From: Planctomycetia bacterium
GTDB taxonomy: Bacteria > Planctomycetota > UBA8108 > SXIK01
Length of the DNA stretch: 42,591 nt
Direction of reading: 5' to 3'
NCBI GenBank assembly: GCA_005772855.1
Contig: SXIK01000201.1
Span: forward strand, 1-42,591
The position numbers were made by a program, and so were the translations under genes. Below are positions 6,923-34,260 of this stretch, in pieces. The notes below the pieces were generated by a model. That model saw nothing but the letters and a program-made list of their open reading frames with translations, made no database searches and was not told where the DNA came from. Positions within the stretch are counted from its first letter, which is position 1. Each line of letters begins with the position of its first letter.

Positions 6923-7962
6923 GCGAGCCTCGCAAGATCCTCATCCGCGCCCCCAACTGGGTCGGCGACATCGTCATGGCCACGGCGAACTTCGCCGATG
7001 CGAGGCGAGCGTTTCCCGACGCCGAAATCACCATTCTCCTGAAGCCGGGGCTGGAAAAGATTCTGGAAGGCTCGCCCGACTTTGACCGGCTTATCCGCGA
7101 TCGTGCCGGCAACTCGGTCACGGGAATCTGGGCCCTGGCCCGTGAGCTGCGGCGCGAGTGTTTCGATCTGGCGATTCTTTTTCCCAACAGCTTCCGCGCA
7201 GCCTGGGTTGCCTGGCTTGCTCGCGTACCCAGACGCGCTGGCTACAGGTGCAACCTTCGCAGTCTGCTCCTGACCGATGGCCTCGATTGTGAGATGGATG
7301 GCAAGAAACGTCGCCCCGTCCCGATGCCCATCGCCTACGCGAGAATTTTGGAGGCCGTCGGTGTACCGCGGGGAGACCTGCGTCCTCGCCTTTTCGTCAC
7401 GCCCGAGTGCGAGCAGCGGGCGTTGACTCTACGCAAAATCCTTGGCATTGCGGCAGGGGAGCGACTGATAGGGCTGAATCCTGGCGCTTCTTTCGGGGCC
7501 AGCAAACTCTGGCCGTCGGAGCACTTTGCGGCTGTGGGGGACGCCCTCGCCGAGCGTCATGGCTACCGCACAATTATTTTCGTTGGGCCAGGCGAGGAGC
7601 GCATCGCGGAGGCGATAGCAGCCCAGATGCGTCACAAGCCAATTTACGACCGCAGTAACTTCGTGCCGCTGGACCTCCTGAAGCCCTTTGTCCGTGACTT
7701 GCGACTCCTCGTCACGACGGATACGGGCCCACGCCACTACGCAGTGGCCTTCGGTGTGCCGGTGGTCGTGGTGATGGGACCGACGCACCCGGACTACACG
7801 TCGATCCACCTCGAGCGCCAGGAGGTTGTGCGACACGATGTCCCCTGTGGGCCCTGCCACCTGAAGGTCTGTCCCATCGATCACAAATGCATGGCCGGCA
7901 TTGGACCGGAAGAAGTGCTGGCGCGAATCGAACAGCTCGATCGTCGCGTCGGTTGGCGCTAA
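6919..7962 (+). CDS. waaF: Lipopolysaccharide heptosyltransferase II (GT9 family)
   Basis: A GT-B fold glycosyltransferase of family 9 that transfers ADP-heptose to the inner LPS core, or a close relative. It starts RKILIRAPNWVGDIVMA, the signature N-terminus of WaaF. It contains NPGASFGASKLWP at about 182-195 and the C-terminal nucleotide-sugar site with TTDTGPRHYAVAFGVPVV and GPTHP. Near the C-terminus is a cysteine-rich HDVPCGPCHLKVCPIDHKC segment, common in this family. The length of 347 residues is normal. The start is a GTG overlapping the pilT stop, which fits the N-terminal homology exactly. It acts on the cytoplasmic face of the inner membrane. Whether the acceptor is lipid A-Kdo or another surface glycan cannot be told. 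Repeat copy A begins 9 bases after its stop. Confidence 0.9.
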   Translation: MSEPRKILIRAPNWVGDIVMATANFADARRAFPDAEITILLKPGLEKILEGSPDFDRLIRDRAGNSVTGIWALARELRRECFDLAILFPNSFRAAWVAWLARVPRRAGYRCNLRSLLLTDGLDCEMDGKKRRPVPMPIAYARILEAVGVPRGDLRPRLFVTPECEQRALTLRKILGIAAGERLIGLNPGASFGASKLWPSEHFAAVGDALAERHGYRTIIFVGPGEERIAEAIAAQMRHKPIYDRSNFVPLDLLKPFVRDLRLLVTTDTGPRHYAVAFGVPVVVVMGPTHPDYTSIHLERQEVVRHDVPCGPCHLKVCPIDHKCMAGIGPEEVLARIEQLDRRVGWR

Positions 7963-8363
7963 AGAGTGCGCAGCCATGATGGGAACATCCTGGCCAACGC
8001 TCCGTCACCATCGGCGCTGGAGGCGCCCGGCGCTTATCGAGCGCCGAGGAGGGGGAGGGCGCCGCGAGGCGGCCGGTGCGGGGGAGGTCTTCGTCCCCCG
8101 CGAGGAGTATACAAGGTGCGCAGCTATCTCCCTTCCCTCGGCCTCTGCCGGCGGGCCCGGGCGAGGCAACAAGGACTTGTTCGAGAAACCGGTAATCTCG
8201 AGACCTTGTGAGGCCCGGTGGGGGGGAATCGGAGCTGCCATGGTTGAAGCTGTGATTTCAAACATCGTTTCCGGCCCTGTACGCTTTCCCGCGAGGGCGA
8301 TGTTACTCTGAAGTGCTGTCCGCACCGATCCCCGTGGCGAATCTCACACCGCGAACCAAAGTC
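7963..8363. other. Intergenic region waaF / fadI carrying repeat copy A
   Basis: Four hundred bases without a supported gene. The left third is a dispersed hairpin repeat (copy A, 7971-8114). The rest (8115-8363) is GC-rich. The promoter of the fad operon should lie here, but I see no convincing -35/-10 pair. The open frame 7966-8211 is produced by the repeat itself. Confidence 0.5.
7971..8114 (+). repeat. Dispersed hairpin repeat, copy A (full length)
   Basis: A 144-base GC-rich intergenic element shared with 21354-21499 (minus strand) and, in shortened forms, 29031-29110 and 34152-34260. It starts with CAGCCATGAT, has a block CATCCTGGCCAACGCTC, then a 19-nt hairpin CGGCGCT-TATCG-AGCGCCG at 8028-8046. 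A purine-rich GGAGGGGGAGGG tract follows, then a terminal hairpin GCGGGGGA-GGTCTTCG-TCCCCCGC at 8078-8101. It ends GAGTATACAA. It begins 9 bases after the waaF stop in the sense direction, so it would be transcribed as the 3' tail of that operon. Confidence 0.85.
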
Positions 8364-21294: not shown

Positions 21295-21526
21295 CCAGTC
21301 TGCTTGCTTCAGTGTGTCACCCACTTCGCAAGTGCTTTACATGCACACCGGTTTTGTCTATACTCCGCGCGCGGGAGAAACACCTCCCGCGCACCGTCCG
21401 GTTGGCGGGATTCTCCCTCTCATCGGCGCTCGATATGCGCCGGGCGCATCAAACGCTGATTGTGGGTGAGCCCTGGTCAAGATGTCCGAAACATGACTGC
21501 GTGGAGAGCATATCTCCCCCTCCTGA
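21295..21526. other. Intergenic region der / ruvC with repeat copy B
   Basis: This 232-base gap is mostly occupied by the minus-strand repeat copy. The 28 bases between repeat and ruvC start contain no clear promoter. The small open frames here come from the repeat. Confidence 0.5.
21354..21499 (-). repeat. Dispersed hairpin repeat, copy B (full length)
   Basis: Same element as 7971-8114, in reverse orientation, 146 bases. Read on the minus strand it starts CAGTCATG and has CATCTTGACCAGGGCTCAC. The 19-nt hairpin CGGCGC-ATATCGA-GCGCCG is at 21424-21442, and the terminal hairpin GCGCGGGA-GGTGTTTC-TCCCGCGC at 21369-21392. It ends GGAGTATAGACAA. Compared with copy A the fourth stem pair of the terminal hairpin changes from G-C to C-G on both arms, so pairing is kept. 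It lies between two co-directional genes and points against them. Confidence 0.85.
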
Positions 21527-28991: not shown

Positions 28992-29030
28992 GCGGCTACC
29001 AAATTTGCCTGGACTCGGTGCGGCCTTGGC

Positions 29031-29110
29031 TGGGATTCCCTGGCCGATGCTCACCCAACATGGGCGCCGGAGGTTTCCGGCGTTTGTCGAGCGCCGGGGG
29101 GGAGGGGGGC
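29031..29110 (+). repeat. Dispersed hairpin repeat, copy C (5' part)
   Basis: About 80 bases matching the first half of copies A and B: CCTGGCCGATGCTCACC, GGGCGCCGGAGG, then the 19-nt hairpin CGGCGT-TTGTCGA-GCGCCG at 29078-29096 and a G-rich tract. The terminal hairpin is missing. It sits between two convergent genes, 40 bases after the PH-like gene and 30 bases from the stop of the kinase-WD40 gene. Confidence 0.7.
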
Positions 29111-34094: not shown

Positions 34095-34151
34095 AGTAGG
34101 CAAGGACCATGCCACGGGGCCGTGGTGGTGGGGCGGAGCGTGGACTTCGAG

Positions 34152-34260
34152 CACCCATGATTGGCACATTCTGACCAGGGCCCACCCGCCCTCGGCGCCG
34201 GAGGCGCCCGGTAGGGGGGAGGTCCTCCTCCCTCGCGAGGAATGTGGCGGCGGGAGTATT
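34152..34260 (+). repeat. Dispersed hairpin repeat, copy D (internally deleted)
   Basis: It matches copies A and B at the 5' end (CATGATTGGCACATTCTGACC, AGGGCCCACC, TCGGCGCCGGAGGCGCCCGG). It then jumps, missing about 50 bases including the 19-nt hairpin, to the terminal hairpin AGGGGGGA-GGTCCTCC-TCCCTCGC at 34213-34236 (weaker pairing, one G-T and two mismatches). A GGGAGTATT at its end resembles the GGAGTATA of the full copies. It lies 95 bases before ybaB. Confidence 0.75.

Follow-up and report, generated by a model that had tools for sequence, protein, structure and literature searches.

Four intergenic places in the window, as we call the whole stretch of 42,591 nucleotides of planctomycete DNA analysed here, carry related hairpin-rich sequences, and the question that they raise is whether their fold is kept as that of a non-coding RNA or belongs to a mobile element. 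The original prediction, made from the window alone, allowed for both. The repeats very probably constitute a non-autonomous MITE family, here termed T1, in which a folded core is a module set between varied ends and the fold is maintained for the sake of the element. The four window repeats would then be aged, decaying members of a non-coding family of miniature transposons with many copies.

The four window copies and their core

The edges of the four copies, A to D, were set by a profile built from the repeat family. Copy A (7968..8111, plus strand; profile positions 8-151, E 5.5e-41) and copy B (21359..21506, minus strand; profile positions 4-151, E 2.4e-34) are complete T1 elements. Copy C (29013..29108, plus strand; profile positions 3-98, E 9.4e-16) is the left half of an element and has neither the terminal hairpin nor the GGAGTATA end that closes copy A on the right; the sequence downstream of it resembles the extra module of long T1 forms. 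Copy D (34144..34244, plus strand; profile positions 3-149 over 101 nt, E 3.4e-14) is a short T1 form from which the second and third hairpins are deleted, and several further short forms of about 104 nt occur in the genome. The left terminus of copy A has decayed, and the copy possibly extends to the stop codon TAA at 7960-7962.

The family profile bears out the original prediction in that the four places are related and intergenic. It had located the repeats correctly, but with edges that the profile corrects, and the ordered set of blocks that it attributed to all four copies is complete in A and B, halved in C and internally deleted in D. The gene contexts that it described (sense after a stop codon, antisense, between convergent genes and near a promoter) agree with our gene calls, with copy B running opposite to the flanking genes engA/der and ruvC. 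Two features were absent from it: the 5′ end of the element is an inverted repeat of the 3′ end, and the genome holds hundreds of further copies.

Inside copy A, a core of four hairpins (P1, P2, a purine linker, P3 and P4) occupies positions 8012..8101 of the plus strand, where a model match spans 8011-8102; this is the part common to other genomes. The core measures about 90 nt and consists of P1 (GCGCC..GGCGC), P2, which is the 19-nt hairpin of the original prediction, the linker AGGAGGGGGAGG, P3, and P4 (GCGGGGGAGG..CCTCCCCCGC). The linker GGGGGAGG is, in every family, a repeat of the P4 5′ arm, which gives CCTCCCCC two possible partners; some copies, for example L042 and L068:18942-19004, have deletions between the linker and this arm. 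Copies A and B fold better than shuffled sequences (z -3.4 and -3.1), and copy D folds no better than its shuffles.

T1 is a high-copy, intergenic element with inverted ends

The full T1 element is 152 nt long (TATACTCCGCGCGG...GCGAGGAGTATA), has a G+C content of 71% and is laid out as TATACTCCGCGCGGCCATGATTGGGACATCCTGGCC... core ...GCGAGGAGTATA. Its terminal inverted repeats start TATACTCC, and the 5′ end TATACTCCGCGCGG matches the inverted 3′ end at 13 of 16 positions.

A search of the full genome for further copies, suggested in the original prediction, found many. The 400 kb of sampled contig sequence and the window, 442,591 bp together, contain 34 T1 elements, and the reversed decoy contains none. 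This density of about 77 per Mb, which may be somewhat high given that the sampled contigs are long ones already known to carry copies, extrapolates to about 390 elements in the 5.03-Mb Planctomycetota draft genome of which the window is one contig. BLAST with copy A gave at least 45 matches, from 40 scored candidates out of 343, and the left-end pattern TATACYSCRCGCGGSC, with one mismatch allowed, gave 138 matches as opposed to none for the pattern read backwards. The copies make up part of the intergenic sequence of the genome and are probably the cause of many of its assembly breaks.

Predicted genes contain only one of the 34 elements, although the coding share of the sample is 88%. When 30 full-length T1 matches, which include some copies of the sister family T2 that also fit the T1 profile, were sorted by context, 11 lay between divergent genes, 8 in tandem sense, 6 in antisense and 1 between convergent genes; genes were called with a basic dicodon-based finder made for the purpose, and the calls carry its errors. 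The orientation of T1 relative to genes shows no bias in the host genome.

Two structural variants of T1 were observed. Long forms carry an extra hairpin array between the core halves (L079:18812-19147, L074:10065-10468 and L069:9858-10149), and in L011 and L012 a second, partial terminal hairpin stands directly 5′ of the element, like a partial tandem copy.

A younger sister family and the TA target

The sister family, T2 (TATACCGCACGCGGGC...GGGCGCGCGAGGTATA), has a core as in T1 between different outer parts. The majority of exact left ends are those of T2, its right end has 81 matches (61 exact; control, 0), and its inverted ends match at 12 of 16 end positions. All 31 T2 elements whose two ends were paired measure 180-413 bp, which leaves no room for a transposase. 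As T1 copies have diverged and T2 ends are nearly identical, we regard T1 as the older wave; many T2 copies lie at contig ends, as expected for near-identical repeats.

Several T2 copies are inserted in the terminal TATA of a T1 element, with an extra TA. In L276, GAGGAGTA is followed by TATACC...GGTATA and then by tcccc, and in L264 and L279 the joint reads ...GGTATA followed by tactcc. Judged by their sequence, these joints are what insertion at TA with duplication of the TA would be predicted to leave.

The same core between other ends in other genomes

Five further genomes have the core, in tens of copies each and flanked by ends of other kinds. When a linker-P3-P4 pattern was run against a collection of 84,980 species genomes, it hit 24 contigs in six assemblies, five of them titled Planctomycetota or Phycisphaerae and one Polyangiaceae (JAFGBI01). 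On follow-up, core matches numbered at least 12 in G392, at least 40 in G393, at least 36 in G394 and at least 31 in G395 (one assembly with G146), and in these four genomes the outer parts are genome-specific. Within the class of the window, the model matched only the window's own genome (G000) and G007, and a search of 392 genomes of the phylum added just one, which makes the distribution of the core patchy. The assembly titled Phycisphaerae, one of the six, has a single core copy of the G007 type, at the very edge of a contig (L147, JAFGJQ010000428.1); it comes from the Zodletone metagenome series to which G007 belongs, and the contig may be misbinned. In L259, on the minus strand and 3178 bases from the end, a T2 left end is joined to a G392-like P4 tail (GGGTCAGCCTCCCCCACCAGCAAG), a possible chimera of element types.

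The ends differ between these genomes, as do the sites that they adjoin. G007 (JAFGKN01, Planctomycetota), which belongs to the same order as G000, carries an element termed T3 (GGCGTGGTTCA...TGAACCACGCC) with flanking 8-bp repeats that are exact in L164 (GTGATCCG) and match over 7 bp in L087; by eye, such flanks are also found in L082 (AGAAAAAC), L100 (CGAAAACG) and L106 (7/8). In the Baikal planctomycete G394, every listed copy starts TGAGCTACTAGG or nearly so, most end GCGCTGAG, and CTGAG is present on both sides. The upstream codon register fits a TGA at the element start in 14 of 16 of these copies; the register is the evidence here, given that frame scores in G394 separate sense from antisense poorly. 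Some copies in G392 likewise stand directly after stop codons. At the G394 loci L219-L236, further, different repeat modules (such as AGCGTGAGCAAGAA... and AGCGCGTCGAAAAATCCCACTGCCG...) follow from about 250 nt past each element start, with CTGAG again at the joints, an arrangement that looks like several element types stacked serially at stop codons.

Pairing is kept between lineages

The original prediction took a change from G-C to C-G in the terminal stem, seen between copies A and B, as a sign of selection on structure. The change is real at one pair and is among three two-sided pairs of the family, but that argument fails: across 19 T1 cores and 28 pairs, three two-sided changes compare with 2.2 ± 1.3 in shuffled alignments, and 195 of 500 shuffles reach three. 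As two-sided changes within the family are at chance, the exchange is not evidence of selection. In the stems of 74 T1 matches, C>T and G>A changes are equally frequent (63 each) and thus give no sign of the G-U preference expected from selection on RNA; nothing in the T1 copies indicates selection on the RNA strand after insertion. Among the 74 matches, paired double changes seem to be in excess in P2 and P4, most likely through T2 copies aligned to T1, since P2 and P4 are the hairpins in which T2 differs.

Conservation of the fold is seen at another level, between element lineages of different genomes, which lay beyond the data of the original prediction. The alignments used were T1-only, cross-lineage and single-genome ones, a mixed alignment having been dropped with its P4 loop misaligned. 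In 22 cores from T2, T3, G392, G393, G394 and G395, hand-picked with the exclusion of copies with indels, 98.1% of cells are paired. This set contains 7 two-sided pairs (shuffles, 3.6 ± 0.9) and 27 two-sided cells (shuffles, 7.9), and none of 500 shuffles reaches either value, in a test that ignores relatedness and in which cells count sequences, not events. The comparison shows that pairing in the core is kept while stem sequences differ between lineages. Loops and linker are strongly conserved between lineages. Among single genomes, the variation in G395 is confined to P3, with 3 two-sided pairs versus 1.1 in shuffles (2 of 500 reach this), and G393 alone has no two-sided pairs. A post hoc count in P2 and P3 of G393 gave C>T changes in a ratio of 13 to 2, a small number and a bias absent from other stems.

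The main rival account of the cross-lineage covariation accepts the MITE but ascribes the paired changes between lineages to template switching between hairpin arms in replication and not to selection on the fold. Template switching is a documented process that makes and keeps perfect stems (PMC8794818), and it would suit both the P3 hairpins of G395, whose whole arms vary among copies yet pair, and the finding that, in each of the four families studied, loops vary more than stems. Correction of arms alone, however, leaves the strong conservation of loops and linker unexplained, and no homogenising is seen within T1 and G393. We consider this account possible but doubtful.

Far less probable is a dispersed structured RNA, regulatory or non-coding, in which selection maintains the fold and the copies act as RNAs of the host. 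The folding of copies A and B relative to shuffles, the covariation across lineages and the start of G394 elements at in-register TGA stop codons are all compatible with such an RNA. Against it stand the chance level of covariation among host-genome copies, the lack of a G-U preference and of an orientation bias, the unremarkable folding of copy D and the absence of an Rfam family, together with the inverted-repeat ends, the target duplications and the T2 copies inside T1.

Searches for a transposase and for known relatives

In the draft assemblies, family and end-based searches found no transposase with ends matching those of T1, T2 or T3, and no autonomous copies were recovered by the T3 and T2 ends. 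In G007, nearly all T3 ends adjoin a core or a contig end, and none borders a transposase. DDE_3 occurs once in G000, with ends other than those of T1 and T2: L142 (G000:C126) is a single IS630-like insertion sequence with the unrelated ends CTTTCATAAGTTCCTGTGCA. A comparison with Rfam, also suggested in the original prediction, matched no known family at the gathering score, and phage, plasmid and viral collections gave no real match. An empty-site comparison was attempted at copy B, where the nearest relative, from the same family, has no synteny. We found no description of the T1 family in the open-access literature.

A palindrome of the REP/REPIN type, which a Y1 (RAYT) transposase would move in single-stranded form, would also be hairpin-rich and dispersed. 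REPs are known in Planctomycetes, and GTAG REP ends often supply stop codons (PMC3733652), which recalls the G394 elements that start at stop codons with CTGAG on both sides. Nevertheless, REPs span 20-40 bp, T1 is far longer, both T1 and T2 end in inverted repeats and target TA, and Y1_Tnp is absent from G000, the host genome, as well as from G007 and G392, which makes this origin highly improbable. An intrinsic transcription terminator repeat is scarcely credible in spite of the strong G+C-rich hairpins and the placement of the G394 elements, and of some in G392, right behind stop codons, as no family has a T tract after P4 and the full T1 matches lie between divergent genes 11 times as against once between convergent ones; the original prediction had likewise thought a fixed terminator role unlikely, and the varied contexts and unbiased orientation in this genome support it.

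T1 as a probable MITE and the upkeep of its core

T1 has the features by which MITEs are recognised: it is shorter than 500 bp and contains no transposase gene, it has terminal inverted repeats, and its many dispersed copies are mainly intergenic. Target duplication is of TA, as far as T2 nested in T1 ends allows one to infer, and of 8 bp in T3 of G007. MITEs are usually A+T-rich (PMC10969869), which is not required of them and does not hold for T1. The mobile palindromic element that the original prediction had offered as one reading is thus supported by the inverted repeats, the TA target and the copy number, as well as by the varied contexts and the lack of an Rfam match.

We propose that a transposase acting in trans on TATACYSCRCGCGG ends and inserting at TA spread T1 and T2, and that T1 is by now probably largely dead and decaying. 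The folded core may be kept at the level of the element, where it would either aid propagation or make insertions tolerable by folding read-through transcripts, and individual copies would not be kept for service to the host. Selection on the element is the reason for the upkeep of the core that we favour over host function. It is conceivable, if rather unlikely, that the core is itself a mobile cassette, a structured DNA or RNA module that crosses unrelated transposon ends and phyla and that in some hosts, such as G394, is delivered exactly onto a TGA, where the stop is re-created and the insertion harmless.

For the MITE that we prefer, the known repeat that comes closest to placing one internal module between varied ends is BOX of Streptococcus pneumoniae and S. 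suis, a high-copy, intergenic, modular and hairpin-forming repeat of variable length, of which S. suis has two types that differ in their end modules but share the boxB modules set between them (PMC3049150); the modular layout is compared here from the description of BOX and not from its sequence. BOX is confined to streptococci, with few copies in other species (PMC3049150), whereas the present core, which is G+C-rich, occurs in different genera and apparently in different phyla and stands between ends that show different target choices. In anatomy, T1 also resembles the TA-ended bacterial MITEs Correia/NEMIS, ERIC and RUP (PMC2229807, PMC10969869), which share its length of about 100-200 bp, terminal inverted repeats, terminal TA, target duplication, stable hairpins and lack of a transposase gene. 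Unlike these, T1 is rich in G+C, and its core is found, too, in elements whose ends have 8-bp duplications.

T1 is thus a G+C-rich variant of a MITE whose four-hairpin core is retained in different genera and apparently in different phyla, where the ends around it imply varied choices of target. MITE-like repeats are common, but they are usually lineage-specific and tied to one end type. Here, distant planctomycetes and one MAG labelled Polyangiaceae share one folded core with paired stem changes, set between ends that point to more than one transposition machinery (TA, 8-bp, and CTGAG at stop codons), and this makes it testable whether a passenger fold is selected in transposons or merely upheld by replication errors at hairpins.
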